A DNA stretch of 30,947 nucleotides from Gemmatimonadota bacterium (GTDB lineage: Bacteria > Latescibacterota > UBA2968), in the NCBI GenBank assembly GCA_002714465.1, contig PAXL01000058.1, positions 9,452 through 40,398 on the forward strand, given 5' to 3'. The notes beneath the pieces are model-generated. The model was not told the origin of the DNA. It saw only the letters and a list, made by a program, of their open reading frames with translations, and searched no databases. Below, piece after piece: positions 4,344 to 30,629 of the stretch (positions within the stretch are counted from its first letter, which is position 1; the number at the start of each line of letters is the position of its first letter). The translations under genes and the position numbers were made by a program.

Positions 4344-4369
4344 GCCTTTCACTTCGCGAGGATTGGATC

Positions 4370-5350: not shown

Positions 5351-5427
5351 AGGTCACGGCGACTCAGTTACCGGTGGCCGCGGTGCAACCGGGTAGGCAC
5401 ACACCACGGATAGAACTCAATCGGAAA

Positions 5428-5466
5428 CCCCGCTCGAAGCTAGGTAGAGCTTCAGCGGGGTCTTCC
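5428..5466 (+). terminator. Intrinsic terminator after the receptor/PorV module
   Basis: The arms 5428-5441 and 5448-5460 pair as CCCCGCT-(C)-GAAGCT with AGCTTC-AGCGGGG, with a single bulged C and a six-base loop, followed by TCTTCCGTTT. An outer pair (TCGGAAA at 5421-5427 with TTTCCGA at 5468-5474) could extend the structure. It lies 77 bases past the PorV-like stop and about 40 before the next start, separating the two + strand units. Confidence 0.8.
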
Positions 5467-5503
5467 GTTTCCGATAGACCCATCTGATTGAACGGGAGCT
5501 GGA

Positions 5504-7510: not shown

Positions 7511-7809
7511 TGCTTTGAAGACGGAAGCAGTCAAATGACCGGAAGCGCGGGTGCGGTTGAAATGTTCGGGTGCAGTTTCGGAATCAATGACCAAATTGAA
7601 CCGAATGGACCATCGACCGGAAGTCCCGCCAAACTGACGCTAACAGAGGCGTCGTGGCATTCTCGATAATTATGAAGATTTCTTGTTTTCTGGCCCTAGC
7701 CCGTATAACGGACGAGGGTCCGGCTAGTTTGTGATGGGCGCTCAGAAGTTGGGTGGCTTTATCGTGGATTGGGATCGATGAGCCCCGACTAAGCCCAGGG
7801 GAATCTGAT
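7511..7809. other. Spacer between tandem OPT-like genes
   Basis: There are 299 bases between the two membrane-protein genes with no convincing ORF or RNA gene. A short inverted pair (CTAGCC and GGCTAG, about 7695-7726) brackets a 20-base interior but has no T-tract. The length suggests that copy B may have its own promoter, but I cannot point to clear -35/-10 boxes. Confidence 0.5.
7797..7803 (+). promoter_or_regulatory. Shine-Dalgarno site deciding the start of OPT-like copy B
   Basis: AGGGGAA lies six bases before the GTG at 7810. This favours 7810 over the in-frame GTG at 7753, which lacks such a site. Confidence 0.75.
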
Positions 7810-9801: not shown

Positions 9802-9823
9802 TTTTTATCGAAGGAACTGCTCG

Positions 9824-12250: not shown

Positions 12251-12315
12251 ACATTGGTTCTGGAGCGCCTCTCGAATCAGGCTCTCGCTGACCATCAGCC
12301 AAGGGTTGGGGCGAC

Positions 12316-15427: not shown

Positions 15428-15805
15428 ATGGCTAGGTGGAAAACAGTCACGGGATTGGGTATTGCATTAATCCTCGTCTGCATGGGCGTGCGTGCAAGTG
15501 GGGTGGTACTGGTATTTGTCGATCTACCATCGATGATTTTTGTGGCTGGGATTGCATTGCCTTTGACTTTGATCCGTGGCTGGAGCTGGCGTCGATTGCG
15601 TCACCTGCTCGTGATCGTTGGGGGAATCGGCACAATGATCGGACTGATTAGCACGCTGCAGACTCTCGGCGACCAGAACACACTGGGGCCTCGTATAGCA
15701 ACGGCAATGATTACGCTCTTTTACGGCTTAATTGGGTCCGCTGTATGTCGCGCTTTTGAAGTGGAGAACTCAGAGGCGGGGGGAGTCGTGAAGCCGTGCT
15801 GTTAG
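15428..15805 (+). CDS. Minimal MotA/TolQ/ExbB-like membrane protein
   Basis: This 125-residue membrane protein starts at the ATG at 15428, preceded seven bases away by GGAGGAA (15414-15420); an upstream in-frame start at 15374 has no such site. It has three or four hydrophobic segments. The first half has 'VDLPSMIFVAGIALPL', like the MotA 'D.ps..iv.GG' second helix. The second half 'GGIGTMIGLISTLQTLGDQ' followed by 'LGPRIATAMITLFYGLIGSA' closely follows the proton-channel helices of MotA/ExbB ('G.lGTviGLi..l..l.dp..lGp.ia.AL.tTlyG'). The large cytoplasmic domain that normally separates the two helix pairs in MotA is reduced to about ten residues (GWSWRRLRHL). No MotB/ExbD partner is visible in the window. 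It could be a degenerate stator relative or a small membrane protein with a separate role; activity is unproven. Confidence 0.7.
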   Translation: MARWKTVTGLGIALILVCMGVRASGVVLVFVDLPSMIFVAGIALPLTLIRGWSWRRLRHLLVIVGGIGTMIGLISTLQTLGDQNTLGPRIATAMITLFYGLIGSAVCRAFEVENSEAGGVVKPCC

Positions 15806-16169
15806 GAATCAATACACTTATGTGCGGTACACGGAAAACTTTTAGATCGATCACCTGGTTCGTGATCCATCCGCCCTCCTTGGTGGCAGATCCCCATCTC
15901 GGTGTGCGGTAGGGAAGGATCTCGTCGGGTAGACATTCGCCGTTGGTGCGAACGCCAATTTGTGACGGATAGAGTCCCAGCATCATGGAGTAGCGGCTGG
16001 GCACGCACGCTGGCGCCTGACACACGGCTTGGTCCAATCGAGTTCCAGACTCGGCCAGTCGATCTAGCGTCGGAGTTTTTACTAGTGGGTTGACGCAACC
16101 CATGGTGTCCCAGCGATGTTGGTCGTCCATCAGAAGAATGATGTTGGGTCGCTGGTCTGCCATCGACAC
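15711..16169 (-). pseudogene. Truncated type I sulfatase (N-terminal fragment)
   Basis: The first about 100 residues are a good sulfatase N-terminus: 'PNIILLMDDQHRWDTMGC' with the metal-binding Asp pair (D15, D16), 'TPTLDRLAESGTR', and the formylglycine signature C55-V-P-S-R59 followed by 'MMLGLYPSQIG'. After 'CLPDEILPYRT' the similarity fades, and the frame runs through non-homologous sequence that overlaps the small membrane-protein gene on the other strand. Family members are usually 450-550 residues, so the GKxH segment, the second metal site and the C-terminal domain are absent. The start is GTG at 16169 (AGGAAG seven bases before) or ATG at 16163; it follows the PhyH stop by two bases, so it was once, or still is, co-transcribed with that gene. 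I read it as a deletion remnant and do not expect activity. Confidence 0.75.
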
Positions 16170-16171: not shown

Positions 16172-16984
16172 TTACACTTCCTGCTCAGTGAGGAAAATCT
16201 GCTTCCGGGTCGCGATTTCTTTGGTATGGGTATAGTGAGCGAATTCGGTCAGCTCGCGTGTTTCGGGTGCTAGTCGCTCCTTAACTTCATCCGGAATATG
16301 CGAAATCCCCCGATGTTGCGGACGATATCTAAGGGTCAGAACGCGACGACGACGATTGGCTGGGCGCCAGGGCAGAACCCCGTGAGTCAGGGCTTCGGAT
16401 ATGATCACAACATCCCCGGCTGTGGGCGTGATATTTAGAACGCCCAACGGCAAGTTATCTTCGATCAGACCGTCCTTAAATAGGTGACGCGGACGATCGA
16501 ACTGACTCTTGTGCGAACCTGGAAGCACAAGCAATCCGCCATCACCTGGACGCACATCGTCCAAATACGGAAACACGACGACGTCGTCACAATAGATACG
16601 TCCGTTTCGGACTTCATACCGCACGCTCTCGAAACCAAAATCGTCGCGAGCACAGTGCAGCGGTGACGCTCCTGTATGTCCATCAGGCGCATCCATCATC
16701 ATCGTCCCGCTAGCAAGCAGAGGTTTTCCGTTTGTCAGTTCGAGGACGATTGGCCAAATGGGTGGCAAAAACGTCAATCGCTCGAGCGCACGATCGAATG
16801 CGAAACCGTGGGCGAATCCTTTAAGATTCTCGGACTGACCGAAATGAGGGGGTAGCTCTTCAGGAGAGCTGTCAATGTAGCGGTCGGCAGCTTCTGATGC
16901 GGCCTCAAGATCTTTCGGTGTTATGGCGTTCTCGAGATGCAGAAAGCCATAGAGATCAAATAAGTATCGCTGTTCGTCAGTCAT
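16172..16984 (-). CDS. Phytanoyl-CoA dioxygenase (PhyH)-family Fe(II)/2-oxoglutarate oxygenase
   Basis: The 270-residue protein has the PhyH layout: N-terminal 'LFDLYGFLHLENAI', a first metal His in 'SPLHCARDD' (near residue 110), 'NGRIYCDDVVVFPYLDD', then 'RPGDGGLLVLPGSHKSQF', and a distal His in 'ALTHGVLPWRPANRRRRVL', whose Arg-rich end is expected for 2-oxoglutarate binding. Bacterial members of this group, numerous in Planctomycetes and Latescibacteria, hydroxylate unknown small molecules. The ATG at 16984 is preferred (GGGAGG ten bases upstream) over a longer GTG start at 17017. It lies 101 bases after the toroid-like protein gene on the same strand and two bases before the sulfatase fragment, so these three probably formed one operon. 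The substrate is unknown; no CoA-related gene is nearby. Confidence 0.87.
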   Translation of the reverse strand: MTDEQRYLFDLYGFLHLENAITPKDLEAASEAADRYIDSSPEELPPHFGQSENLKGFAHGFAFDRALERLTFLPPIWPIVLELTNGKPLLASGTMMMDAPDGHTGASPLHCARDDFGFESVRYEVRNGRIYCDDVVVFPYLDDVRPGDGGLLVLPGSHKSQFDRPRHLFKDGLIEDNLPLGVLNITPTAGDVVIISEALTHGVLPWRPANRRRRVLTLRYRPQHRGISHIPDEVKERLAPETRELTEFAHYTHTKEIATRKQIFLTEQEV

Positions 16985-17085
16985 ACTGATCAAGCCTCCC
17001 AATCTACGTGCCACCAAAAGTTGGTTTATGGAGCACTCGGTTAGCGGGTGGAGGTCCGAAAAAGTTCAAACCAACATAAACTAAG

Positions 17086-18972
17086 TCAGTAGGCAAAACG
17101 CAAAACCATGTCATCATACCCCGGATAGCTGACAGTTGCGACGTCTGAGCCGTGCTCCATGGAGAGATATGGATAGTCATAAGTCTTGGCCGGATTTGGA
17201 TCGATCGGTTTTCCGTTGATGGTTGGCATCCGGCTACTGTTGATCCAGTACTCATATATGTGGTTGTCCAGAGAAGTGTGGCTCAGCTTGCCGTCTTCAC
17301 AGGAATGCGGCAGTGCCTTTACCGCTTCCTTAAACTGCTCGAATCCACCCTGATAATCTTCTGATCGGCCCATCTGGATCACCACGGGCGACCAGACATC
17401 ACCAAGCGCCAAGTAGTAACCTAATCCAAACGGCGAAGGTTCAACCGTGTAGTGTCCTGCAGCTATACGAATTCCGCAGTAAGCATTTCCGGCCTTGGTG
17501 AATAACCATCCGTCTCTATTTTCTTCGCGGTTGTCCCAGACTTCTCCTTTAGACACAAAAATACGCACACCATCCTTAGGGTCAGCACCTGGATCACGCG
17601 CAACGATCATGCATCCCGTGCCACATACTCCGTTTGTCGTGCAAAAACAGACTTGGTACTCCTTCGCAAGGGAGTCGTTGGCGTGTATTCCGCCAAAGCC
17701 ATAGACCATAATCCGATCGTCCACGTGGCTGGAAAACGTGACTCCCATGATGCGGCTCTGGCGCACCAGTTCGATATAACTCTTAGCTGAATTAAAGGTC
17801 AAAGCGGACAGCGTGTAGTCGGGCGTGTAATAGAGCGTGCGCAGAATGGAAGATCCGTGGCTTTTGTCAAAAAGTATCTTGTAAACTCCCCATCTTTCAG
17901 CGTCCGAAAGCTCCCATTTACCACCCATCCCGAAATGTCTTGCTGTGGCCAGATAGGCACCGCGGTCAGTGTCCCGTGCTATGGCTCGGACGATATTCGG
18001 CACCCGGTAGCTGCTAGTGAAAGAAGACATCGCGAACTTCATAGGGGTCGGATTTACGTCATGGTCGTGCCATCCATAAGCATAGAGTAGGCTCCGTGAC
18101 CAAGAAATGCTGCCAGTCTCGTGCCAAGTGTATACATAGCCACGCGTACATGCCCAAGCAGACCGGATGCCAGTACGCGGCTCAAACTCGCACGCGATCT
18201 TTGCCCAAAACAAATCCAAGCAATCTTGCCCGGCTTTTTTGAGGTCCGCCGATTCCGCCAGATCGTCGACACTATACCAGCAGCCTATGAGTTGCATCTC
18301 ATAATCAGCCGGATGAGCTATTTCGCAGTTAAATCCTTCACGTGCACGTTGACGGAAATTCTCCTTCCAATAATCCACCCACGCCTGGTAATGCTCTTCG
18401 ACTGGACTACCGTCCGCCAGCTTCATTTCGGGACCGTAAGGAGTTTCGGCTTGCCGTAGGATTTGTGCTGCTAGGATGTTGCAGGCATTCCAACTTGCAT
18501 CATGATTTTCACTGGCGGTGATATGCCATACACCCCGGCTCGCATTGTTCCACGAGCTGGCCAACGGATCTATTCGGCTTCGAACATAAATCCAGTTTCG
18601 GGCCATCTTTTCAATATTACGTCGGGCAGTGTCGGTAAGAAGCCGATGAGATCTAGGAAGAAGGTAGAGGCGAAACAGGTTATCCGGGTACATTGCGAAA
18701 TGTGCGACCGGTTCGATTGGGTTGCGCTCACAGTAAGCGTTAATCAGTTCATTGGCACGGTCAACCTGCTGGTTCATATACAGACACGCCAGGGCATAGC
18801 CTATGGCTGCTCTGGCATCTTGTTGCCCTGGCATCTCGTCATCGTCAGGTGGATTATCGATAACGAACTGGATTTTCTCCTCTATTCGCCCCTCAACAAC
18901 ACTGTTAATCCGATCCTGACCGACTTCTGCCGATATGTTGTGGTGCCCCGATTGATAGCGTCGATCAGACAT
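17086..18972 (-). CDS. Toroid/lyase-like protein of an unnamed family, non-secreted member
   Basis: This 628-residue protein has no signal peptide (ATG at 18972, GGGGAAGGA five bases before). The N-terminal two-thirds are helical with the look of an (alpha/alpha) toroid, as in heparinase- and alginate-lyase-type enzymes; the last third is beta-rich. Landmarks are 'SENHDA' (154-159), 'EEHYQAW' (192-198) with a conserved Glu at about 217, and a tail from residue 583, 'PTINGKPID', running 46 residues to the end. The same motifs in the same order occur in the secreted protein at 26690-28621, with the same 46-residue tail. Asn-His pairs on toroid helices are often catalytic in polysaccharide lyases, so a lyase or hydrolase role is reasonable, but I know no named family that it matches. 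It is followed by PhyH on the same strand. Confidence 0.72.
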   Translation of the reverse strand: MSDRRYQSGHHNISAEVGQDRINSVVEGRIEEKIQFVIDNPPDDDEMPGQQDARAAIGYALACLYMNQQVDRANELINAYCERNPIEPVAHFAMYPDNLFRLYLLPRSHRLLTDTARRNIEKMARNWIYVRSRIDPLASSWNNASRGVWHITASENHDASWNACNILAAQILRQAETPYGPEMKLADGSPVEEHYQAWVDYWKENFRQRAREGFNCEIAHPADYEMQLIGCWYSVDDLAESADLKKAGQDCLDLFWAKIACEFEPRTGIRSAWACTRGYVYTWHETGSISWSRSLLYAYGWHDHDVNPTPMKFAMSSFTSSYRVPNIVRAIARDTDRGAYLATARHFGMGGKWELSDAERWGVYKILFDKSHGSSILRTLYYTPDYTLSALTFNSAKSYIELVRQSRIMGVTFSSHVDDRIMVYGFGGIHANDSLAKEYQVCFCTTNGVCGTGCMIVARDPGADPKDGVRIFVSKGEVWDNREENRDGWLFTKAGNAYCGIRIAAGHYTVEPSPFGLGYYLALGDVWSPVVIQMGRSEDYQGGFEQFKEAVKALPHSCEDGKLSHTSLDNHIYEYWINSSRMPTINGKPIDPNPAKTYDYPYLSMEHGSDVATVSYPGYDDMVLRFAY

Positions 18973-19174
18973 TGATCCTTCCCCGTGAATTCTTATTCTG
19001 TTGTCTCTGCTACGCTTTGTATAGATGCTGAGTCAAGGAGGACAGGAAAAAGGTTAAGCGATTAAATTCACAGCGAAGACCCTTCGAGTTCAGTTCGTTT
19101 AAGGGACCTTTGGTCGTGCAAGAATGGTTTGTATTCTCCTTTTCGATTAAGTCTCAGGGCCTCCCGGTCGCGAC

Positions 19175-19948
19175 TCAATACACGCAAGATGTGGATCCTC
19201 CATCTACGGCGATAGCTGTCCCCTGGATGTGCCGTGCTTCTTGAGAACAGAGAAAACAGGCCAATTCGGCCACGTCCTCCGGCGTACCTAGGCGCCGAAT
19301 GCCCTGCTCTATAATGCCTTTCTGTTTGCTTTCTTCCACAGATGTGCCATCGATTCGGGCGCGATTCTCGAATAACTCTTCCAAACGTTCTGTCATAGTA
19401 AGCCCCGGATGGATCGCGTTCACATTGACGTCGTCCCTTAGTCCAAGGCCGGCCAACGCCTTGCTGAAGTTGGCGAAGGCAGCATTTACTGCTCCGCCTA
19501 TCATGAAATCTGGATCAGGCGTTCGGGAAAATCCACCGATGATGTTGACGACGGTTCCCTGTCTTTCTTTGAGCTTCGGCCAGAGCAGTCGTGACATTCG
19601 TACGGCACCAAAGAACTTGAGCGCAAATCCATCCTGCCAGACGTCATCCGACTGCTCTAGGAACAAACCGCCCTTCGTCGCTCCAGCGCAGTTTATTAAG
19701 ATGTCCAGACAGCCAAAGCTTTGATCTAGTGCTTGGGCTGCCTTTTCGCACCCTGCTCTGTCCCGGAGGTCGGTCGCGCAGGTTTTCACGCGCCGCCCCG
19801 CAGCACGCACCTCTTCAGCAGCAGCTTTTAGGTTTGTCTCGGATGCGGCGACTAGAAGAGTGTCGCATCCTTTGCGTGCCAATCGATGTGCTATGGCTTT
19901 GCCGATTCCACGGCTGCCTCCCGTTACAAGCGCTATTTTACCGTTCAT
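19175..19948 (-). CDS. SDR-family protein lacking the catalytic Ser-Tyr-Lys
   Basis: The 257-residue protein starts at the ATG at 19948 (AAGGAA about seven bases upstream). The fold is clear: TGGSRGIG (9-16), 'INCAGA' (85-90) in the NNAG position, 'VNAIHPGLTMTERL', 'GTPEDVAELACFL' and a final 'QGTAIAVDGGSTS'. At the active site, however, the usual NIxS reads NIIGG (135-139), and YxxxK reads GGAVN (151-155), so Ser, Tyr and Lys are all replaced. Some SDR subgroups share this 'G.xNAA' form, so it may be a conserved variant rather than decay. There is no acidic residue after the second strand (VAAS), which is compatible with NADP binding. It lies 202 bases upstream of the toroid-like gene on the same strand. 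Possible roles are a non-standard reductase or a cofactor-binding partner. Confidence 0.85.
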   Translation of the reverse strand: MNGKIALVTGGSRGIGKAIAHRLARKGCDTLLVAASETNLKAAAEEVRAAGRRVKTCATDLRDRAGCEKAAQALDQSFGCLDILINCAGATKGGLFLEQSDDVWQDGFALKFFGAVRMSRLLWPKLKERQGTVVNIIGGFSRTPDPDFMIGGAVNAAFANFSKALAGLGLRDDVNVNAIHPGLTMTERLEELFENRARIDGTSVEESKQKGIIEQGIRRLGTPEDVAELACFLCSQEARHIQGTAIAVDGGSTSCVY

Positions 19949-20322
19949 TATGATTCCTTCTGCTTTCCTTCGTGTGGGGCGGCTACGAGGGCCATAGAGA
20001 ATTTTAAAATGGTTCTTGTCCAAACCACAAACCGCAGGATAGATATACCGAGAATCAATGGTTATATAGCCAATACCAGGGAACAGTCAGATATAGTCCT
20101 GAAATAGTGTGGTGTCACGCTCTCGTGCGTTATAACCGCAGAGTTGCGCGTGATCATCAAAAATAGAATGGCTCCGACGCGGAAGAGAAGAGACCTTCCG
20201 TTATGGTGAAGAACCGGGTGCACACGGGAAAACTGATGTGGGACTTTGGTTGGGCGATGCGGCCCAGATAAGTCACCATAAGGTAGAAAAAAAACGCCAA
20301 CTAATCATAGTGGGAGAATTGC
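19949..20322. other. Divergent intergenic region
   Basis: There are 374 bases between the SDR start (- strand) and the 110-codon gene (+ strand). AT-rich segments, including an A8 run near 20288-20295, are compatible with promoters on both sides, but I cannot name specific boxes. No coding or RNA gene is seen. Confidence 0.5.
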
Positions 20323-20655
20323 ATGGAAATCGAAGACCGACTATCTGACCTAGAATGGCGTCTAAGTTATCACAAGGTCATGATCAACGTCCTTGCCCTC
20401 CTTGTCTTGGCCTCGGCAGGTAGCCGGGTGTGGGAGCAGTTTAGTGGCCCCGGAGAGTTGACGGTCACAAGGCTGAGTGTGGTTGACGCCGAAGGGAAGC
20501 AGTTGGTAATCTTGACTGCGGACGTGGCCGGTAACGGCGAGGTAGCGACCTACTCACCCGAAGGGAAGAAGCTCGTGACCTTGGCTGCGACCCCGAACGG
20601 TGACGGCGCGGTAGTGAACATCACAAAGTCTGGGAAACAGAATAGACGCGACTAA
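20323..20655 (+). CDS. Small membrane-anchored beta-repeat protein
   Basis: This 110-residue protein has GGGAGAA six bases before the ATG. It has a short charged, probably helical N-terminus (EIEDRLSDLEWRLSYHK), one transmembrane helix (about residues 20-36, INVLALLVLASAG), then two similar units of about 24 residues: 'VVDAEGKQLVILTADVAGNG' and 'SPEGKKLVTLAATPNGDG', each a 'x.xGK.lv.L.a...G.G' beta pattern. Short proteins with such 'DxxGK' repeats occur in Planctomycetes-like and Latescibacteria-like genomes, but their function is unknown to me. With a single N-terminal anchor the repeat domain would face the periplasm if the N-terminus is inside. A degraded relative lies near 24772-25052. 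No operon partner is evident. Confidence 0.7.
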   Translation: MEIEDRLSDLEWRLSYHKVMINVLALLVLASAGSRVWEQFSGPGELTVTRLSVVDAEGKQLVILTADVAGNGEVATYSPEGKKLVTLAATPNGDGAVVNITKSGKQNRRD

Positions 20656-20715
20656 ATCCTCGAGAGTATTGAATGAGAATGAAAAACCGGCTCTTGAGAA
20701 ACGGTCACGTTATTA

Positions 20716-20759
20716 CCAGCTAGTGGCGAGTATACTGGCATTGTGCCAGTACCTGCTGG
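20716..20759. repeat. Nested inverted repeat (possible RNA hairpin)
   Basis: TACTGGCA (20733-20740) and TGCCAGTA (20744-20751) form a perfect eight-base stem with a TTG loop, and CCAGC (20716-20720) with GCTGG (20755-20759) can close an outer stem. There is no following T-tract. It sits between the small repeat-protein gene and the BNR gene, so it could be a weak terminator, an operator, or a leader structure. Confidence 0.55.
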
Positions 20760-20932
20760 CTGTGGGCTAAGTACCTATACCCGCATACACCTAATCACCC
20801 GAGTTCTCATCAGATAGAATCAAGGCGGTTGAATTAGGCCGTTTCATTTGTCAGGAGGCTCCGTGTGCAAACTCCGGAAAGAGTAAATCTGGCAGAGTAG
20901 ACGTATTACACCTGTAGGAGGGAGGCAGCGCG

Positions 20933-22219
20933 ATGGATGTGCTGAACAACATAGAGATTTCTCCGGTCTGGGCGGGCCACCCGGTTGGGTTCGATCTGCT
21001 GACACACAAAGGACGGCAGTTCGTGGCGTTCTACGATCATGACCGAAAAATGACTGTTGGCCAGAGAAGCCTGAAAGAGAGCCGATTCGAGCTTCTGAGT
21101 CTTGAAGGCCGGTGGCTCGAGAATCGCGGGCGGCTTTCGACCAATATAGAGTGGGACACCCACAACTCCATCACCATGACGATCGATCGAAATGATCACA
21201 TCCATTTGTGCGGCAACATGCACGTGGACCCGCTGATCTACTTCAGGACATCATGGCCACTCGATGTCAGGAGTTTCGAACGGATCGACTGCATGGTCGG
21301 CAAGAACGAGGATCGATGCACGTATCCGCGGTTTATGTCTGGGCCCGGAGGAAAGCTAGTGTTCAGGTATCGAGACGGGATGAGCGGAAACGGTGTCGAC
21401 TACTACAACGTATACGACGAGGGCAGCCAGTCGTGGACACGGCTCGTCGACATCCCGATTCTCCACGGGATGGATCTGATGAACGCCTATGCGCGGCAGC
21501 CTGAACTGGGACCGGACAACCAGTATCATATGATCTGGATGTGGCGCGACACCCCCGATTGCTCCACAAACCACGACATCTCTTATGCGACGAGTCAGGA
21601 TCTTGTGAACTGGTCCGCCGCTGATGGATCACCACTTCCACTGTCGATTACTGTTGAAGCATCGGCTTCGATAATAGACCCCGTTCCTCCAAGGGGCGGG
21701 CTGAGCAACATGTGTGCGTCCCTCGGGTATGACTCCAAGCACCGTCCTGTAGTGAGTTACCACAAGAACGATGAGAAAGGGTTTACACAGGCCTACGTGG
21801 CGAGGCTCGAAAACGGAGATTGGAAGATTCACAAACTGTCCGACTGGGACTACCACTGGGACTTCAGTGGTAATGGCTCAATCGATACGGAAATCACCCT
21901 TGGAGTTGTTGAAACCCGAGAGGAAGCGTTCCTCGCTATGCCTTGGTGGCACGCCAGGAAGGGGTCAGGTATCTGGAAGATCGACGAGCCGACGCTAAAG
22001 GTTGTCGGAAGCTATCCCGATCCGGAGCCGGACCTGCCCCCGGAACTGTCGAATGTCGTTTCAGACTTGCCGGGAATGGGTGTTCGGACCGCTGCAGGTC
22101 GAGGTGACACGGAGCGAAAGTATTGGCTGCGGTGGGAAACACTCGAGAGAAACCGCGATCAACCGCGTGATGAGATCCCGCCGCCAAGTGATCTCGTACT
22201 CTACGAGGTTAAGGCGTAA
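20933..22219 (+). CDS. BNR-repeat beta-propeller protein, polysaccharide-lyase-like (PL24/PL25-like)
   Basis: This 428-residue protein starts at the ATG at 20933 (GGAGG at 20921-20925). It resembles the BNR_4 beta-propeller proteins that include ulvan lyases of families PL24 and PL25. The diagnostic stretch is at residues 74-107: 'WDTHN' (His77), 'DRNDHIHLCGNMHVDPLIYF' (His91, His97) and an Arg just after. Later blocks 'CTYPRF', 'FRYRDGMSGNG' and 'NHDISYATSQDLVNW' fit propeller blades. In those lyases, His, Tyr and Arg residues on the propeller face act in beta-elimination; a His-rich equivalent is visible here but I cannot confirm each position without alignment. There is no signal peptide, so it would act in the cytoplasm or leave by another route. 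It heads the + strand degradation cluster; PL25-like ulvan or related uronate lyase is the best guess, non-catalytic propeller the alternative. Confidence 0.75.
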   Translation: MDVLNNIEISPVWAGHPVGFDLLTHKGRQFVAFYDHDRKMTVGQRSLKESRFELLSLEGRWLENRGRLSTNIEWDTHNSITMTIDRNDHIHLCGNMHVDPLIYFRTSWPLDVRSFERIDCMVGKNEDRCTYPRFMSGPGGKLVFRYRDGMSGNGVDYYNVYDEGSQSWTRLVDIPILHGMDLMNAYARQPELGPDNQYHMIWMWRDTPDCSTNHDISYATSQDLVNWSAADGSPLPLSITVEASASIIDPVPPRGGLSNMCASLGYDSKHRPVVSYHKNDEKGFTQAYVARLENGDWKIHKLSDWDYHWDFSGNGSIDTEITLGVVETREEAFLAMPWWHARKGSGIWKIDEPTLKVVGSYPDPEPDLPPELSNVVSDLPGMGVRTAAGRGDTERKYWLRWETLERNRDQPRDEIPPPSDLVLYEVKA

Positions 22220-22266
22220 GAGGCGGTATGACCGGTTCTGGTTGGGTTCCCATGCGACGATCTGTT

Positions 22267-22293
22267 TGATCCCATTACATCTGAATGGGATCA
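22267..22293. repeat. Perfect inverted repeat after the BNR gene
   Basis: TGATCCCATT (22267-22276) and AATGGGATCA (22284-22293) form a ten-base perfect stem with a seven-base loop, 47 bases after the BNR stop. There is no T-run afterwards. It may limit read-through, stabilise the 3' end, or be a protein-binding palindrome for regulation of the GH3 gene. Confidence 0.6.
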
Positions 22294-22496
22294 GTAGATG
22301 CTGTATGCTTCAGGCAAAGTGAGAATAGGCTCGTGGGTGTTCAACGCCCCCCTCCGGAATACAGGGAAAAATACTGACGTCTAAACGGTGTAGGCTCTTT
22401 CCTTAGGCTTCCAGGATTGATTCCATTTTGCTTTCACTTTTCACGTAATCCGGGAATTCTAGGGTCTACGGCCGCTAGGCTTTGGAGGACGTTACA

Positions 22497-22544
22497 ATGC
22501 ATCTGCGTAACGTGCTGGACCGGAATGCCTTAGGAAGATTCTAA
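22497..22544 (+). CDS. Possible 15-residue leader ORF before GH3
   Basis: ATG at 22497 is preceded, seven bases away, by GGAGGA (22484-22489) and opens a 15-codon frame (MHLRNVLDRNALGRF) ending at TAA 22542-22544, 25 bases before the GH3 start. The strong ribosome site is the main evidence; the frame is short enough to arise by chance. If real it could be a translational leader or a remnant of a lost gene. Confidence 0.35.
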   Translation: MHLRNVLDRNALGRF

Positions 22545-22569
22545 AATAGAACTTTTGTGGAGGAATGAC

Positions 22570-24654
22570 GTGAGAAGAAGGAATGTAATGGCGTGTCTGT
22601 TTTCCATACTGATCACGACCGGCGCGCTGCAATCGCAGCCCGTGATCGATGCGAGGACTGTCGGCCTAATCGAAAGCGATCAGCTCCAGTTCAAAGATCT
22701 GAACAAGAATGGCGCACTTGACGCCTATGAGGATTGGCGGAATTCTGCGGAAGAACGGGCGCAGGACCTGGTTTCTAAGATGACGCTTGAAGAGAAGGCC
22801 GGGATGCTGCTGATCAACACGCTGAATGCTGAATCCGGAGGGACGCTTTCGGAAACCGCGATCCGCTATGTAGAAGAGGAGAAGATGACACGGTTTGTGT
22901 TCCGGAACACCGTCACATCTTCCCCCAAGCCCCCGACTGGAGGCGGATGGCGCGGAGCAGAGGTCACCCCATATCAGGCAGCGCAGTTCATGAACGCGAT
23001 TCAGGAAGTCGCGGAAGGGACGCGATTGGGCATTCCGCCTTTGTTCAAGTCCAACGCTCGTAATCACTTCACTCACGATGCGCGCGCAGGTATAAACGTC
23101 TCCGCGGGATCGTTCTCGGCCTGGCCTAAAGAGGCGGGACTCGCCGCGACACGTGACATGGACCTAGTTGCCGACTTCGCCCAGACGATGAGGAAAGAGT
23201 GGACGTCTATCGGGCTGCGAGGGATGTATGGCTACATGGCTGACCTCGCAACCGAGCCCCGATGGTATCGAATTCACGAGACGTTCACCGAAGACGCTAA
23301 TCTTCTAGCAGATATCGTGTCTGTGCTTGTCTCGAACCTTCAAGGATCGAGGCTCGGGTCGGGTAGCGTTGCTCTAACAATGAAGCACTTCCCGGGCGGC
23401 GGGCCACAGGAAGGCGGCGGAGATCCGCACTACGACTTCGGGAAGCGTCAGGTGTATCCCGCAGGGAATTTTGAATACCACTACAAGCCGTTTGTGGCAG
23501 CCATCGACGCAGGCGTTTCCTCAATCATGCCATATTATGGAATTCCGGTAGGCCAAAAATATTTACCAAACGACGTAGGTATGGCCTTTTCAAAAGGCAT
23601 CGTTACAGACTTGCTCCGAGGCGAGCTTGGCTTCAAAGGGTATGTCAACTCGGATACCGGGATTATCCTTCGTACGTCTTGGGGTCTGGAGGACAAGACG
23701 TTGGATGAGCGTATCGCGATCGCGATCGAGGCTGGAACGGATGTCTTGTCTGGGTTCGACAGCAATGCTCAGATCATCGGAGTGCTGAATGCCGGTCTAT
23801 TGATGGAAGCCCGACTCGATGTATCGATAAAGCGGTTGCTGAAAGAGCAGTTCGAACTTGGTCTCTTCGAGAACCCATACGTGGATGCCGATCGCGCGGC
23901 GTACATCGTTGGTAACCGTTCATTTCAGCTCAAGGCGGAAAAAGCCCAGCGTAAATCGATCGTGCTTTTGCAGAATGATGGGTCGGTCCTGCCATTGCGT
24001 ATGCCACCAGCTGATCCACCCCAGACTTTCTTTGATCGGACACCACCCAAGCCACGTCATGAGGAGGACAAGGTTCATCTCTATACGATGGGGATGAATA
24101 AAGAAGTCGTCGCGAACAGTCGTTGGCATCGATACAACGTGGTCTCGGGTGACGCGGAAGCGGATGGGTCCCGGAAGGCTGTTCCTGAGGGCACAGACTA
24201 CGCGATTATTCGTGTGATCGTATCGAACGAGGGCGCCAGACCCGACCTGCGCTTCGGCGGTTCGAATCCTGACGAGTTGGACATGATCTCGTTCTCAGGA
24301 ATGGCCAAATCGAAATCATGGAAAATCACGCCTTCCATGGAAGACATCCAGGATGTGATGGAGGAGGCCGGTCCAAAGAAGACGGTTCTGGCGATCTACT
24401 TCCGCCAGCCTTTCGTTCTCGACAAGGAGAGCGGCCTGCTGGATGCGAGTGCGATCCTTGCCACCTTTGGGGTAAGCGATGCGTCGATAATGGATGTGCT
24501 TACGGGCAAACACAACCCCTCAGGGAAGCTGCCCTTTGCGCTTGCGAACAGCAGCGAGGCTATCACGAAACAGGCATCCGATGCGCCCGGGTATGCAGAG
24601 GGGGATACGCTGTTTCCGTTCGGACACGGGTTGAGTTACCGATCCCAGAACTAA
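22570..24654 (+). CDS. Secreted glycoside hydrolase family 3 (beta-glycosidase)
   Basis: The 694-residue enzyme begins at a GTG at 22570, supported by GGAGGAA at 22559-22565; an in-frame TTG at 22555 would lie before this site. The N-terminus is a signal peptide ('RRRNVMACLFSILITTGAL', cleavage near 'QSQP'). An acidic loop 'DLNKNGALDAYEDW' (about residues 44-57) is the calcium-type motif seen in many Bacteroidetes-type GH3 enzymes. The TIM-barrel domain has 'KHFPGGGPQEGG' and the nucleophile Asp362 in 'GYVNSDTGI'; the second alpha/beta domain contains 'RKSIVLLQNDGSVLPL' and ends with 'PFGHGLSYRS', with no FN3 domain after it. GH3 enzymes remove beta-linked glucose, xylose or similar units from oligosaccharides. 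Periplasmic or outer-surface location is likely. It sits between a lyase-like gene and a sulfatase, fitting the trimming step of polysaccharide degradation. Confidence 0.92.
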   Translation: MRRRNVMACLFSILITTGALQSQPVIDARTVGLIESDQLQFKDLNKNGALDAYEDWRNSAEERAQDLVSKMTLEEKAGMLLINTLNAESGGTLSETAIRYVEEEKMTRFVFRNTVTSSPKPPTGGGWRGAEVTPYQAAQFMNAIQEVAEGTRLGIPPLFKSNARNHFTHDARAGINVSAGSFSAWPKEAGLAATRDMDLVADFAQTMRKEWTSIGLRGMYGYMADLATEPRWYRIHETFTEDANLLADIVSVLVSNLQGSRLGSGSVALTMKHFPGGGPQEGGGDPHYDFGKRQVYPAGNFEYHYKPFVAAIDAGVSSIMPYYGIPVGQKYLPNDVGMAFSKGIVTDLLRGELGFKGYVNSDTGIILRTSWGLEDKTLDERIAIAIEAGTDVLSGFDSNAQIIGVLNAGLLMEARLDVSIKRLLKEQFELGLFENPYVDADRAAYIVGNRSFQLKAEKAQRKSIVLLQNDGSVLPLRMPPADPPQTFFDRTPPKPRHEEDKVHLYTMGMNKEVVANSRWHRYNVVSGDAEADGSRKAVPEGTDYAIIRVIVSNEGARPDLRFGGSNPDELDMISFSGMAKSKSWKITPSMEDIQDVMEEAGPKKTVLAIYFRQPFVLDKESGLLDASAILATFGVSDASIMDVLTGKHNPSGKLPFALANSSEAITKQASDAPGYAEGDTLFPFGHGLSYRSQN

Positions 24655-24729
24655 GCGCAGGGGACTAAGAGACGGCAAAGGACTACTGGAAGGGGGATGT
24701 GCGAAGTTCGAGAACGGGCAAAAGACTGC

Positions 24730-24750
24730 CACAACTCTGAAAGGGTTGTG
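24730..24750 (+). terminator. Hairpin downstream of GH3 (weak terminator candidate)
   Basis: CACAACTCT and AGGGTTGTG pair over nine bases (one G-T wobble) around a GAA loop, 75 bases after the GH3 stop. No T-tract follows, so intrinsic termination is doubtful; a 3'-end stabilising hairpin is equally likely. Confidence 0.35.
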
Positions 24751-24771
24751 AAATACAACTCAGATTTGCCG

Positions 24772-25052
24772 TGGGGAATTGAAGGGAAATCGAAGACCGG
24801 TTAACGATTTTGAAGAAGCATCTAGGCAATCACCACGCAGTAGGGGGCGAACTGGCTCATTGCCTAATATTGGATGTGGCTAAACATCAGGATGCCCTGA
24901 ATAACATATCCGGTACACCTTTCTGTTTCTTGCAAAATGCTACACGGGCTTTAGGCCGAAACTCAACGAATCAACCCAGCATATATAGGGCAGAAAGCCG
25001 AACCATTTCGGCAGTTCCTGTATTACAGTCGACAATCAAAGGAAGATCATGA
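24772..25052 (+). pseudogene. Degraded copy of the small anchored repeat-protein gene
   Basis: Bases 24785-24799 are identical to 20325-20339, the first codons of the 110-residue gene, and similarity runs upstream through its ribosome-binding region (TGGG-GAATTG). The ATG is changed to AGG at 24783-24785. Read in that frame, the sequence begins EIEDRLTILKKHLGNHHAV against EIEDRLSDLEWRLSYHKVM, then a short hydrophobic stretch, after which resemblance is lost; the frame stays open to a TGA at 25050-25052 overlapping the sulfatase start. A TTG at 24810 could initiate translation but has no ribosome site. I read it as a duplicate decayed by loss of start and divergence. Confidence 0.55.
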
Positions 25053-26584
25053 CGGGACAGCCCAACATTCTTTTCATCATGTCGGACGATCACGCGTCCA
25101 AAGCGATCAGCTGCTACGGCGGGGGAATCAATCACACGCCGAATCTTGACCGGCTCGCCAACGAGGGAATGCGACTCAATCACTGTTACGTCACCAACTC
25201 GATCTGCACTCCCAGTCGAGCCGCAATATTGACTGGCACCTACAATCACGTCAATTCGGTAACGACGCTTAATACGCATATCAACAATCGCCAGCCGAAT
25301 GTCGCGAAACATCTGCGTACCGGCGGCTACCAGACGGCAATTGTCGGGAAGTGGCATCTGGGTCAAGGCAAAGCTCACGAGCCTACCGGTTTCGACTTCT
25401 GGTCGGTTTTGCCGGGACAGGGTGAGTATTTCGATCCTTTCATGACCGAGATGGGCGAAAAAATTCAGGTTCCTGGGTACTGCACCGACATCATCACCGA
25501 CAAAAGCATCAAATGGCTCGACCGACGCGACGAGAATAAGCCGTTTTTTCTTATGTGCCACCACAAGGCACCACATCGGGAGTGGGAACCCCACCCAAAG
25601 AACCGCGGGCTCTATCAGAATGATATCGAACTGCCCGAGAGCTTTGACGACGATTATGGAAACCGTGCAAGGGCGGCAGCAGAAGCCACAATGCGTATCA
25701 AGACCGACATGAAATACTCCGATCTCGGTCTTGTGCAGCCTGAGGGCGGATCCGAGGTCGGTGAGCGCGTAACCCCCGGATCAGCACAGCGCAAGGTCCC
25801 GTTTCCCGAGGACGTGTCGGACTTTCGCCTGGTCGACAAGCATACCGGTGAAGTATTTACCTTCAAGGATCAGGAGGAGTTAGCTCACTTCAAGTATCAG
25901 CGATATCTGCAGCGCTACCTGCAGACCGTTCATTCTGTCGATGAGAGCGTCGGGCGTTTGCTTGACTATCTGGATGATAATGGTCTCACAGAGAACACGA
26001 TCGTGATCTATACATCTGACCAGGGCTTCTTCCTCGGGGAACACGGCTGGTTCGACAAACGATTTATGTATGAAGAGTCCTTCCAGATGCCGTTCCTGAT
26101 TCGTTTCCCGAAAGAAATCGAATCTGTGGGAACCTGCGATGAGATGGTCTGTAATGTCGACTTTGCCCCGACCTTCCTCGACTATGCAGGATTGAAAACG
26201 CCGTCCTACATGCAGGGCAGCAGTATCAGGCCGCTCCTGAAGAAGGAGAAGCCGGATGACTGGACGGAGTATGCCTACCATCGCTACTGGATGCACCGTG
26301 ACGCCAACCACAATGCCTACGCCCACTATGGCATTCGCGACAAGCGTTACAAGCTTATCTATTGGTACAATGAAGGCTATGATCTGCCCGGCACAAACCA
26401 CGGAGGCGAAGATCGTGAGTGGGAGCTGTTTGATTGCCAGAAAGATCCCTTGGAATTATTCAACATTCACGCAGATCCAGCGTATCAGGATGTGGTTAAA
26501 CGCCTGACGGCGGCGCTGGATACCAAGATGGCAGAGATTGGCGACGAGCCCGAGCACGAAACAGGTAGTCCAGTATGCGTGTAG
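25049..26584 (+). CDS. Type I (formylglycine) sulfatase
   Basis: This intact 511-residue sulfatase has AAGGAAG five bases before the ATG at 25049. Metal-binding Asp13/Asp14 lie in 'ILFIMSDDHAS'; the formylglycine signature is C53-T-P-S-R57 followed by 'AAILTGTYNH'; K101-W-H103 in 'GKWHLG' and D324-Q325-G in 'YTSDQGFFLGEHGWFDKR' supply the remaining substrate and metal contacts. The C-terminus has 'WELFDCQKDPLELFNIHADP', as usual for the family. It hydrolyses sulfate esters, here probably on a sulfated sugar released by neighbouring enzymes. Cys must be converted to formylglycine by a maturase (FGE or anaerobic SME), which is not in the window. There is no signal peptide, unusual for this class; an internal site of action or an unrecognised start would explain it. 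The substrate subfamily cannot be set by eye. Confidence 0.92.
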   Translation: MTGQPNILFIMSDDHASKAISCYGGGINHTPNLDRLANEGMRLNHCYVTNSICTPSRAAILTGTYNHVNSVTTLNTHINNRQPNVAKHLRTGGYQTAIVGKWHLGQGKAHEPTGFDFWSVLPGQGEYFDPFMTEMGEKIQVPGYCTDIITDKSIKWLDRRDENKPFFLMCHHKAPHREWEPHPKNRGLYQNDIELPESFDDDYGNRARAAAEATMRIKTDMKYSDLGLVQPEGGSEVGERVTPGSAQRKVPFPEDVSDFRLVDKHTGEVFTFKDQEELAHFKYQRYLQRYLQTVHSVDESVGRLLDYLDDNGLTENTIVIYTSDQGFFLGEHGWFDKRFMYEESFQMPFLIRFPKEIESVGTCDEMVCNVDFAPTFLDYAGLKTPSYMQGSSIRPLLKKEKPDDWTEYAYHRYWMHRDANHNAYAHYGIRDKRYKLIYWYNEGYDLPGTNHGGEDREWELFDCQKDPLELFNIHADPAYQDVVKRLTAALDTKMAEIGDEPEHETGSPVCV

Positions 26585-26689
26585 CCGGTCAAGCTGCCGA
26601 TTATGGAACAGGGCAGAGGTGGCAGAGAGAGCGCTGGCAACAATGACGTGGTCACAAAAGCAACCTTACATACACGAAGGATTGCGTCG

Positions 26690-28621
26690 ATGCGCATGGT
26701 AGCCGCCTGGCATATCACGCTCATCGCCGCCCTTGTTGGATCGTGGATACCAAGAGCAGCAGGTGCAATGGAGCAAAAGAAACCCGAGGAAATTGTCGCA
26801 GCATTCGACAAACGCGTAGGGGCGTACTTTCGCGCCGAATCTGGCAGTCCTCTTTTACGAGCCAGGAAGCGTCCGCCGTTGGATCCCGGACGTGGGAATT
26901 ACGTCCGAGCATATTCCTATTCACTCGTTGGGTTCGCGGCGCGCTGCCTCTATCTGGGCGAGATGCTGGATGAGGCAAATGCCGCTCTTGCCGAAAACGC
27001 CCAGCATTATATCGACAATCCTCTAGACATCCTGGATCGAGACAGCTTTCACTGGCACGCGGAGACTGTGCTGCGCCTGATCGAGATGTACGGCAGCAAC
27101 GGGACTAAACACCCGGGTCGCCTCACCTCTAAAACAGAATCGCTCGCACTCCAACCGATTTGGGAATATGTGCGGAAGGTCTCGACGCTCGAGAAGGCAG
27201 AGCACGAGGAGTCAGAGACGTGGCACATCTACCTGTCCGAGAATCACCACGCGATGATGTTCACGCTTTGCTGGCACTTCGCTAAGCTCGCAAAAGACCG
27301 CTACGAGTATCAGGATCTCAGATACGAGGACGGGGCCACAGCCGAGGAACATTACCGGGCTTGGAGCGAATACTTCGTAACCTATTGCCGAGAGCGTGCC
27401 CGCAAGAGTCCATGCATTGAGATGATGAGTGATGGCTATAACAGCACACTCATCAAAGGTTTTTACAATTTTTTCGACTTTGGTGACGCTCGTGTCCGCC
27501 GGTCCGCCGGTTTGTTTCTGGATCTCTACTTTGCCTATTGGGCTCAGGAGCAGATCGGTGGTGTCCAGGGAGGTGGGCGGTCGCGCATCTATTTCCATAA
27601 TGCATTTCGACACAATCCAAACCACGGGAATGCACCGCTTGCGTGGCTCTACTTCGGTATAGGCGACCAGCCTGAGGTGTATGGTCACGACGTGAATGCA
27701 GCACTGAGTGAATACCGTCCTCCTGGCGTCATCGCCGACATCGCAAGGGACGTGGATGGGCGAGGCCGATACATCGTCCGGCAACGTCCTCAAGGGCTTG
27801 GTAAAACGGGAATTCCCACCAAGAACGCGCATACAGCCGTCCCGACCCGGATGCGGACAGATGGCGGTGGCATCATTCGATACTCGTATTGCGAACCCGC
27901 TTTCATCCTCGGCACACCGATGACTGAAGCTCGTCCTATCGAGGACTGGGCGGCGATCAGCATCCAGAATAGATGGCAGGGCGTGATCTTCTCGGGTGAG
28001 GACGATGCACGTATCGTACCGATCGTTCGTCCCGTCGACCATCGAGTGACAATGAACGCTCAGCGGTCTATGCAGAGCCAGGGATGCCTGATCACGCAGA
28101 AGATCAAATACAGCAAAGGCGCGGCTGAGATGATCGTCTGGCTGTCGAAGGAAGGTCTGACAGTGCCCTCGGAGGAGGACGGCGTTGTATTCGTTGAGGC
28201 GGAAGGCGCCTATGCTGCCGTTCGTGTGGTCACGGGAGGCTACACCTGGATGGGGGGCCGGTTCGAATCGGACCGCAACATACGCGAAGGGCTCACGTTA
28301 ATCGCAAACGAGGAGTTCGCGCCTGTGATTCTCGAGGTGATGTCGAAGAGCTACGTGGCGAGCTACGAGGCCTTCAAGGATAAAGTCAAGGCTTCCGAAG
28401 CAAATCTCGACGGAGATCTTCTCACCTATGAAAGCATCTACGGAGATAAGATGACGTTCAACACGAGCGGCGGCGCACCCCCGACGATTAATGGAGAGCC
28501 AATCGATTATTCACCAAAAATGGTCTTCGAGAGCCCATTCCTGAATGCAGAGTGGAACAACGGCGTTGTAACGGTCAGCAAGGGGAAGCGGAAGAAGGTT
28601 CTGGACTTTACGGAGGACTGA
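26690..28621 (+). CDS. Toroid/lyase-like protein of an unnamed family, secreted member
   Basis: This 643-residue protein starts at the ATG at 26690 (AAGGA about nine bases upstream), giving a signal peptide 'MRMVAAWHITLIAALVGSWI' cleaved near 'RAAGA'; a longer start at 26603 would bury it. The helical N-terminal part and beta-rich C-terminal part resemble the arrangement of toroid polysaccharide lyases. It shares with the non-secreted relative at 17086-18972 the motifs 'SENHHA' (183-188), 'EEHYRAW' (219-225), a Glu at about 244, and 'PTINGEPID' starting 46 residues from the end. Overall similarity is otherwise low, so these are good candidates for functional residues. It follows the sulfatase by 105 bases on the same strand and faces the heparinase gene. 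Likely a periplasmic lyase or hydrolase acting on an acidic polysaccharide; reaction and substrate unproven. Confidence 0.75.
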   Translation: MRMVAAWHITLIAALVGSWIPRAAGAMEQKKPEEIVAAFDKRVGAYFRAESGSPLLRARKRPPLDPGRGNYVRAYSYSLVGFAARCLYLGEMLDEANAALAENAQHYIDNPLDILDRDSFHWHAETVLRLIEMYGSNGTKHPGRLTSKTESLALQPIWEYVRKVSTLEKAEHEESETWHIYLSENHHAMMFTLCWHFAKLAKDRYEYQDLRYEDGATAEEHYRAWSEYFVTYCRERARKSPCIEMMSDGYNSTLIKGFYNFFDFGDARVRRSAGLFLDLYFAYWAQEQIGGVQGGGRSRIYFHNAFRHNPNHGNAPLAWLYFGIGDQPEVYGHDVNAALSEYRPPGVIADIARDVDGRGRYIVRQRPQGLGKTGIPTKNAHTAVPTRMRTDGGGIIRYSYCEPAFILGTPMTEARPIEDWAAISIQNRWQGVIFSGEDDARIVPIVRPVDHRVTMNAQRSMQSQGCLITQKIKYSKGAAEMIVWLSKEGLTVPSEEDGVVFVEAEGAYAAVRVVTGGYTWMGGRFESDRNIREGLTLIANEEFAPVILEVMSKSYVASYEAFKDKVKASEANLDGDLLTYESIYGDKMTFNTSGGAPPTINGEPIDYSPKMVFESPFLNAEWNNGVVTVSKGKRKKVLDFTED

Positions 28622-28742: not shown

Positions 28743-30629
28743 CTAGACACCACGCGTAAACCGCACGGTGTTATTCCCCCGTTCACCCGGGCTTGTCAAC
28801 GTCAGTATGATCCGATACAGCCGCTCGCCCCAGACACTGCGGACCCTGCTATCCTCGAGTTCTATCGTCTCGATAGAGGGTGTTAGCTTCGCCGCTTCGA
28901 AAATGATTTGTCCGTTTGCAGTGGTCCTGTCTTTGGCGATATCTCTCGCGCTAAGCTGGATTACGCCATCTCCGATCGCGACTCCACACGGCGTCAGCAG
29001 GCTGAGCGTGATCTCATTTGTAACCTTCGTGAGCTCATAGAAGTCTTCGATCAGCACTTCCTTCCCGCGCACGAGAGTCACCTTTCGGACATACGAGTCG
29101 AGATTCGCGTCTTCGGGATATGCGCCGGAAATGTCTGTTGCGAAAACCATCTCTTGGTCACTGATCTCACAAGTGGACGGGCCGGCTGCATACTCAGGTC
29201 CTGGTGCCTGCATCACACCATCGATTGTCGGTAAGGTGTGATAGGCGGACTGCATCGTCCAGATTTCGTACCTGTTGGGGCTAAAGGTCTTTCCCGTATA
29301 GGTTTCGACCCCCGCATCGACGATCAGTGGCTGTCCATCGATGTAGATACTCACGTGACCGACATCGTTATGATTGTGGCTTTCATCGTTGTGACCACCC
29401 TTGGCTGCCACAAAGAACCCGCTTGGGCTTCCGGCCTTATCCCTGGCGGTCACAACCTGGATATAGGGCAGCCAGGTGTCTCTTGGCAGTGCCTGTGAGG
29501 CATTGGCTTCAATCAAATCCCTTGCTGACAGCATTGCAGGTAACAGTCTGGCAATCGTCTCGCTGAATCCCTTTACCGCTACAGACGTGCCTTCGGCGAA
29601 GTGAGCTCCCATCGCCATCATCTCAGGATCCCCGATCCGTTTTCCGAAATGGTAGACCAGCGATGGTGATGGTGTTAACAGACCATGCGCATCCGCGAAG
29701 TTCACGAAGTATCTGTCGTCGATCTGAACGCCCTTGATGTAGGTCCCGATGTTGCGAATAAGTGGATCATCCCACACATCGATCTCACCGTTTGTGGCAC
29801 TGTGAAGTGTCTCGAGACACTCATACAACGACGCCCCCGCCCGCTCCCAGTAGCCAGGTCCTTCGTCGCATCCACCGTCTCTCGGGTAGGGATCGATGAA
29901 GTTGTCGAGACAACGAATACTCTTGGCAACGGCGGCAGTGCGCCGATCCGGATCGGGCTCCTGCAAGAGGGCTGCCGTCAGCCAGTTTGATATGATCCAG
30001 GGATTCCAGTTATTAACGCGGCGTGCCGGGTTCTTGAGTCCCATCCACGTGAAGTCCTCACGCTCGAGACAGGGGGTCAAGACGCGACGCTCCATCTCGC
30101 GTTCGATCCTGGGTAGAATCAGTGTGGAGTAGGAATCGATCTGTGGGCCGAGAAGATAAACCGTCCAGCTCAGTAGGCTCGCCGCCTCCGCCACGAACAA
30201 GGCGACGATCGGTTCGGACGTATCGGGCAGGTCGAAGCCGGCCTTCTGATTGGATAGGGTGAACGGCTTGCCCCAGAAGGATTCCTCACACAGGGCCCAG
30301 ACTCCATCGACGATGTCGTCGAGAAACCGACCTTCAGCCTCGAGACATTCTGCCATCACCAGATCGCACAGCGCTGTCCGATGGCGGGCACGGTGCTTGT
30401 CGTAGATCGCACGTTTACCGGTATGTGCCATCTCAAGGAATAGCGTCGCCCTAAAGGGCTCCCACTGATAGCCGATACAGGCCTCACCCTTCAAGACATG
30501 AGCCTTCCGTACGCCATCTGGAATCGCTTCCCAGGGGTCGCGCTCATCCCTTGTAGGGTATGGGTGCCAAACGTCTCGGAGAACTAGGATGTCTCTCAAT
30601 CGATCAGGTGGATATAGTTCGCTCAACAT
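28743..30629 (-). CDS. Heparinase II/III-family polysaccharide lyase
   Basis: The 628-residue protein has the two-part heparinase II/III architecture: a helical toroid with 'NNWNPW' (206-211) and 'DGGCDEGPGYW' (251-261, candidate catalytic Tyr260), then a beta-sandwich domain starting with 'GHNDESHNHNDVGHVSIYID' (His418/His420) and 'QPLIVDAGVETYTG', with 'SAYHTLPTIDG' (His464) after it. In heparinase II the corresponding Tyr and His residues carry out beta-elimination at uronic acids, and a His in the sandwich domain binds metal. The ATG at 30629 follows a GGGAGAAG ribosome site; there is no signal peptide, so it may cleave oligosaccharides in the cytoplasm. It is convergent with the secreted toroid protein gene, with 121 bases between. 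Related members act on heparin, alginate and other uronates; the substrate here is open. Confidence 0.88.
   Translation of the reverse strand: MLSELYPPDRLRDILVLRDVWHPYPTRDERDPWEAIPDGVRKAHVLKGEACIGYQWEPFRATLFLEMAHTGKRAIYDKHRARHRTALCDLVMAECLEAEGRFLDDIVDGVWALCEESFWGKPFTLSNQKAGFDLPDTSEPIVALFVAEAASLLSWTVYLLGPQIDSYSTLILPRIEREMERRVLTPCLEREDFTWMGLKNPARRVNNWNPWIISNWLTAALLQEPDPDRRTAAVAKSIRCLDNFIDPYPRDGGCDEGPGYWERAGASLYECLETLHSATNGEIDVWDDPLIRNIGTYIKGVQIDDRYFVNFADAHGLLTPSPSLVYHFGKRIGDPEMMAMGAHFAEGTSVAVKGFSETIARLLPAMLSARDLIEANASQALPRDTWLPYIQVVTARDKAGSPSGFFVAAKGGHNDESHNHNDVGHVSIYIDGQPLIVDAGVETYTGKTFSPNRYEIWTMQSAYHTLPTIDGVMQAPGPEYAAGPSTCEISDQEMVFATDISGAYPEDANLDSYVRKVTLVRGKEVLIEDFYELTKVTNEITLSLLTPCGVAIGDGVIQLSARDIAKDRTTANGQIIFEAAKLTPSIETIELEDSRVRSVWGERLYRIILTLTSPGERGNNTVRFTRGV

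Follow-up and report, generated by a model that had tools for sequence, protein, structure and literature searches.

The locus considered here raises the question of what is encoded by two genes on opposite strands of a 30,947-nucleotide stretch of DNA (hereafter the window, to whose full length all coordinates refer), whose products, P0001 and P0002, resemble one another. P0001 (17086..18972, minus strand) has 628 residues and comprises a helical toroid (residues ~12–333) and a β-domain (~340–628), and it lacks a signal peptide; P0002 (26690..28621, plus strand) has 643 residues, with the toroid at ~32–358 and the β-domain at ~361–643. Both reading frames are complete and open, the mechanically called open reading frame (ORF) of P0002 beginning at 26603, 29 codons ahead of the start at 26690. 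The two proteins share 26% identity over 601 columns by BLASTP (E 3e-37): they are homologous, far above chance. Our answer, to which we assign a probability of roughly 70%, is that they belong to a single uncharacterised family of polysaccharide lyases (PLs), built from a toroid and a β-sheet domain and acting on uronic acids by β-elimination; the best reading is of a candidate new PL family with a known fold and a variant active site. P0001 lies in branch A and P0002 in branch B of this family, which also has a third branch, C.

The first-pass annotation of the window had drawn attention to four features common to the pair, and all of them were found. The SENHxA motif reads SENHDA in P0001 (residues 154–159) and SENHHA in P0002 (183–188), its first four residues, S154–H157 and S183–H186, being encoded at 18502..18513 (minus) and 27236..27247 (plus), respectively. 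The EEHYxAW motif follows as EEHYQAW (192–198; 18379..18399, minus), with His194 and Trp198 conserved, and as EEHYRAW (219–225; 27344..27364, plus). The later Glu is Glu217 in P0001 (18322..18324, minus) and Glu244 in P0002 (27419..27421, plus), whereas the end of the β-domain is formed by the PTINGxPID tail, PTINGKPID in P0001 (17089..17226, minus) and PTINGEPID in P0002 (28481..28618, plus), which is 46 residues long in both when counted from PTING to the terminus. The assertion that motif spacing is preserved stands for the step from Trp to Glu, which is exactly 19 residues in both, but the gap between SENHxA and EEHYxAW is 32 residues in P0001 and 30 in P0002. Two further residues had been overlooked: an invariant Tyr, seven residues past the Glu in P0001 (Tyr224; 18301..18303, minus) or six in P0002 (Tyr250; 27437..27439, plus), and an invariant Arg ~50 residues beyond the Tyr (Arg277; 18142..18144, minus; and Arg299; 27584..27586, plus).

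Conservation was counted over 62 members of the family (23 from A, 28 from B and 11 from C). Four positions are kept in every member: Asn156/Asn185, Trp198/Trp225, Tyr224/Tyr250 and Arg277/Arg299 (P0001/P0002 numbering). Glu155/Glu184, Arg209/Arg236 and Glu217/Glu244 are each kept in 61/62, His157/His186 in 60/62 and His194/His221 in 59/62. The Trp-to-Glu distance is 19 throughout (62/62), the Arg always lies 49–53 residues past the Tyr (62/62), and the remaining toroid spacings vary little within a branch, 10 of the 11 branch C proteins having 33–36 additional residues between Asn and Trp. No His 8–10 residues ahead of the Tyr is common to all branches.

The predicted structures (pLDDT, the predicted local distance difference test, 91 for P0001 and 94 for P0002) each show a helical toroid, as had been proposed, together with an added β-domain. 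In these models, the fold matches that run along most of the chain are to PL35, PL15, PL17, PL12, PL8 and PL33 lyases, and among the best 50 matches for each protein, those spanning both toroid and β-domain are lyases or a related epimerase. The Asn–His pair is predicted to sit at the start of a toroid helix, in keeping with the earlier suggestion of a lyase-like placement. The strongest rival to a lyase, albeit an unlikely one, is a toroid glycoside hydrolase (GH) using Glu155/Glu184 and Glu217/Glu244 as acid and base. The near-invariance of both Glu residues would suit it, as would the presence in the P0002 fold list of a GH76 mannanase, endoglucanase A and an unsaturated glucuronyl hydrolase, but these align over 234–254 residues, mostly in the toroid, and matches through both domains favour lyases; moreover, a hydrolase would leave the fixed Asn, Tyr and Arg to be explained, and the Glu ahead of the Tyr is also a feature of heparinase-like lyases (27/30 proteins of the reference set described next).

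The reference set (n = 30) consists of heparinase II/III-like proteins, namely P0003, a PL33-like lyase encoded in the window at 28743..30629 (minus), and 29 proteins from the genomes of relatives (29 of 60 matches). P0003 scores 409 bits against BtPL33HA over residues 8–620, and its Asn207 aligns with Asn238 of that enzyme; it was considered as a third member of the family and set aside, since BLASTP shows no similarity between it and either of the pair and it is PL33-like instead. It retains the Asn, Tyr and His-rich β-domain motif of PL33. An hhalign comparison of the joint family profile with the reference set scored 33.1 (probability 5.9%), against 20.5 for the best of 40 block-shuffled profiles and 12.6 for the reversed profile; single-branch scores were 29.2 for A, 33.9 for C and 19.5 for B, the last being at about the null level. 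Asn156 fell on Asn207 of P0003 in 31 of 40 resamplings and was uncovered in the remaining nine. This weak profile alignment, which lies above its nulls, suggests that the family Asn corresponds to the Asn that is catalytic in heparinase-like lyases, and it puts the Asn–His pair in a lyase-like register. The alignment is weaker at Tyr224, which fell in the column of P0003 Trp261 in 13/40 resamplings and was uncovered in 27; this column holds Tyr in 17/30 and Trp in 11/30 of the reference proteins, and in those with Trp, where shown, the Tyr mostly lies one column earlier. Glu217/Glu244, one of the shared features pointed out in the first-pass annotation, is probably a supporting residue of a heparinase-like E...Y motif, the Tyr that follows being the likelier catalytic group.

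The remainder of the active site appears to differ. The reference set has an Asp at P0003 position 313 in 30/30 proteins, 53 residues past Tyr260; to judge by spacing, Arg277 of P0001 occupies its place, and the invariant Asp of the heparinase-like lyases has apparently been replaced by Arg in the family. The reference proteins also have a β-domain His at P0003 positions 418 (29/30) and 420 (22/30). At the 85% level, no β-domain His is kept in the 28 branch B rows, and none in the 23 branch A rows except His607 in the C-terminal tail (21/23), whereas branch C keeps His477 and His484 in 10/11. In BtPL33HA, the N238A and Y291A variants have no measurable rate, with some residual activity, and H444A shows a ~17,000-fold loss (PMC11848413). 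The Asn/Tyr/His sites of PL35, PL12, PL15, PL17, PL21, PL39, PL8 and PL23 are set out in PMC12088678 (Table 4 included).

From these comparisons we infer the following roles. Asn156/Asn185, with the adjacent His157/His186, would neutralize the carboxylate of the uronic acid; Tyr224/Tyr250, the likely catalytic acid/base, would abstract the C5 proton and/or protonate the leaving oxygen; and Arg277/Arg299 would play a supporting role near the Tyr.

Searches against named families bear out the first-pass view that none fits, as far as Pfam, NCBIfam, PADLOC and the PDB are concerned (CAZy/dbCAN was not searched). Neither protein has a Pfam or NCBIfam match at E ≤ 1, or any PADLOC match. PDB searches gave nothing convincing for P0001 or P0002, either with single sequences (best E 1.0 and 1.1) or when profiles built from 72 and 48 sequences were used (best E 2.6 and 0.95), and none of the rows of the 72-row alignment A3 matches PF07940 or another Pfam lyase family at E ≤ 0.1. 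There is likewise no sequence similarity between the pair and the solved members of PL33 and PL35. Profile kinship to PL8, GH88 or sulfatases was considered and dropped, as none was found; against nine Lyase_8 proteins, the profile probability was 0.1–1.3%. One relative, P0076, is labelled 'Heparin-sulfate lyase N-terminal d...' in its source record, but our own Pfam scan of it gives only DUF1961 and a weak DUF6250, and we treat the label as a lead rather than as a family identity. General literature on lyases and their hosts yielded nothing on this family.

The number of relatives listed by protein searches was 32 for P0001 (branch A), 419 for P0002 (B) and 295 for a branch C protein from locus L044, the entries for B and C being protein clusters; the lists may overlap, and for B and C they are those at E ≤ 0.001 among the candidates with most shared words, of which the best 120 each are considered here. 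P0004 is 100% identical to P0001 over its own length. Source names among the best 120 of B and C do not go beyond 'hypothetical' or 'uncharacterized', the exceptions being a few that refer to a fused domain and one that reads 'heparin-sulfate lyase N-terminal domain'. Scanning genomes yielded 50 loci, and their titles mention Latescibacterota, Gemmatimonadota, Planctomycetota, Verrucomicrobiota, Kiritimatiellia, Lentisphaerae, Bacteroidota and others. The three branches, at ~25% identity to one another, are joined by profile comparison with 100% probability (E 8e-64 for A–B, 1e-61 for A–C and 4e-97 for B–C). A tree built from 62 proteins shows A and B each as one side of a branch (support 100/100 and 100/99), and because they are deep and separate we regard P0001 and P0002 as old paralogues and not the result of a recent duplication. 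C is not one side of any branch owing to the long-branch L029 protein, the placement of which is unsure (the tool itself warned of this). A fourth branch, 'D', suggested by single-linkage clustering, was rejected: Pfam identifies its proteins as PL4 and GH28, probably joined via fused proteins, and its five rows were excluded from the A+B+C counts.

In some members an additional domain is present: a dockerin, a type IX tail, CBM96 or an esterase. A C-terminal DUF1961 is found in P0043, P0076, P0090 (which also has a GDSL esterase domain) and L029:13900-16608, and the 1128-residue protein at L048:9770-13156 joins a branch C domain to a GH28 domain. A single Gemmatimonadetes genome, G003 (the source of L006, L044 and others), has 13 family matches spread over ~10 sites (some of the matches are incomplete or interrupted by stops), together with 32 heparinase II/III-like matches and no GH88 over the cut-off.

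The pair had also been taken to represent a split between secreted and internal steps. Inspection and a hydrophobicity rule agree on a signal-peptide-like N-terminus in P0002 (residues 1–26; 26690..26767, plus), which P0001 and P0003 lack; the split thus holds for this pair. It is not a property of the branches: applied to Met-starting proteins among 32 A, 120 B and 120 C sequences, the same simple rule finds a hydrophobic N-terminus in 24/31, 87/115 and 83/115, respectively, counts that incomplete genes may lower. Both P0001 and its nearest relative, P0005, lack it, whereas it is present in P0006 and P0007, which come next in the tree, so that a loss within a small group is likely. We propose that P0002 would attack a sulfated glycan containing glucuronate outside the cytoplasm, in concert with a sulfatase, a GH3 enzyme and a BNR_4 protein encoded nearby, and that P0001 would act inside the cell, cutting imported oligosaccharides; the internal role is suggested by the absence of a signal peptide and by the position of the gene among same-strand short-chain dehydrogenase/reductase (SDR) and PhyH genes. 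In alginate use, intracellular exo-lyases feed an SDR reductase (PMC8778563); P0001 may, in a similar way, supply an SDR with unsaturated uronates.

The sulfatase lies directly upstream of P0002 (25049..26584, plus), its closest PDB entry being the N-acetylglucosamine-6-sulfatase 5g2v (444 bits). The BNR_4 protein (20933..22219, plus) is similar to 4irt, 5mum and 5muk, which we take to be GH145 enzymes, and more weakly to the L-rhamnose-α-1,4-D-glucuronate lyase 7esk; it falls far below the cut-off of the NCBIfam rhamnosidase model. For the GH3 enzyme (22555..24654, plus), the closest entry is SN243 (652 bits), presumably a β-glucuronidase from a functional metagenomic screen. A β-glucuronidase of such an origin is described in a review passage that does not give the name SN243 (PMC10176489). 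On the strand of P0001, the upstream SDR dehydrogenase (19175..20023, minus) is closest to 6jh7 and to NADPH-sorbose reductase, the literature having given nothing useful on the identity of 6jh7. Downstream are a PhyH dioxygenase (16172..17017, minus), a 152-residue ORF (15711..16169, minus) which, as it matches only positions 1–72 of the 301 of a sulfatase model, is classed as a short or broken sulfatase, and a second SDR dehydrogenase (14126..14980, minus) with no PDB match at E ≤ 1e-40. Elsewhere in the window, tandem DUF6785/DUF6784 proteins are encoded at 5504-7510 and 7753-9801 (plus), a relative of which occurs near a partial branch B member in L042. The region 10-13746 (plus) encodes a TonB-dependent barrel, a PorV/PorQ family protein and two successive GWxTD-domain proteins, and within it lies the gene (1947-4343, plus) for a 798-residue protein that matches nothing in Pfam or NCBIfam.

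In other genomes, proteins of the P0003 cluster are found near branch B members in L006 and L040 (that of L040 being below the Pfam cut-off), PL4 genes in L001, L002, L012 and L046, and a GH115 gene two genes from the branch A member of L049; another A member, in L050, lies among housekeeping-type genes. GH88 is encoded within 2 kb of a branch B member in three of 10 genomes, all Bacteroidota, and is below the cut-off, absent or distant in the other seven; the three loci are probably related and hence do not represent three independent events. Sulfatases, defined as the single-linkage cluster of the window sulfatase (members not all individually scanned), are present at 23 of 51 loci, counting the window, but we dropped this as evidence of substrate given the very high background in most of these genomes (at most ~98 candidates scored per genome, a part of them listed). 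PhyH genes that cluster with that of the window adjoin full-length sulfatases in L001, L003 and L012. Overall, the neighbours fit the breakdown of uronic-acid glycans. The catabolic look of these neighbourhoods (sulfatases, PL4, GH28, GH88, GH115), and the extra domains of some members (dockerin, type IX tail, CBM96 or esterase), argue against an enzyme that abstracts the same proton without cleaving the chain, for instance a uronate C5-epimerase (human dermatan sulfate epimerase, which has this fold, works in this way), and we think such an activity improbable. Least probable of all is a divergent glycan binder that has kept the lyase fold and no longer cuts, as might be imagined from the lack of a conserved β-domain His of the usual kind in A and B, since the residues of the presumed site are invariant across three branches at such low identity and binding alone would hardly demand Asn, Tyr and Arg in every member.

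If, as we favour, the members are lyases, a sizeable share of uronic-acid glycan breakdown in these phyla escapes current annotation. A bolder version of the lyase proposal, which we hold tentatively and rate somewhat below even odds, is that branches A, B and C form a new PL family that serves as a common tool for acidic glycans, as yet unassigned, in seven phyla (Latescibacterota, Gemmatimonadota, Planctomycetota, Verrucomicrobiota, Kiritimatiellota, Lentisphaerota and Bacteroidota) and has a mixed site: a heparinase-like Asn–His and Tyr, a PL8-like Arg and, in A and B, no β-domain catalytic His and probably no β-domain metal. Were this true, the fold could work without the β-domain His used by most known lyases that share it.

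Among known systems, the PL40 ulvan lyase Uly1040 likewise combines a toroid and a β-domain and has a toroid Asn and Tyr, but it is described as using Asn–Trp, His485/His487 and a metal (PMC12915356), and is set apart here by that description rather than by sequence. The heparinase II/III-like lyases (PF07940; PL12, PL15, PL17, PL21, PL33 and PL39) have in common with the family the toroid and β-sheet domain, the toroid Asn(–His) and, presumably, a later E...Y motif and β-elimination; unlike them, the family has no Pfam match, a Glu-to-Tyr distance of 6–7 rather than ~5 residues, Arg apparently in place of their Asp and, in A and B, no retained β-domain His. The PL35 enzymes GAGase II and GAGase VII (8khv and 8khw) are the best full-length fold match of P0002 and near-best for P0001, and the Asn and Tyr of the PL35 triad are likely to have counterparts in the family, whereas the His401/His397 that GAGases require, alongside a Mn site in the β-sheet domain (PMC12088678), has no conserved counterpart in A or B. 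PL8, which includes chondroitin AC, hyaluronate and xanthan lyases, has the same two-domain fold; the family differs in lacking both a common His 8–10 residues ahead of the Tyr and any profile similarity. We infer that the Tyr of the PL8 HH/HG...Y motif is catalytic because a His–Tyr distance of nine residues is reported for PL8 in PMC12088678, and in seven of the nine PL8 proteins (in the remaining two, the motif escaped the search pattern) an Arg lies 52–54 residues past this Tyr, much as the family Arg lies 49–53 residues past its own.

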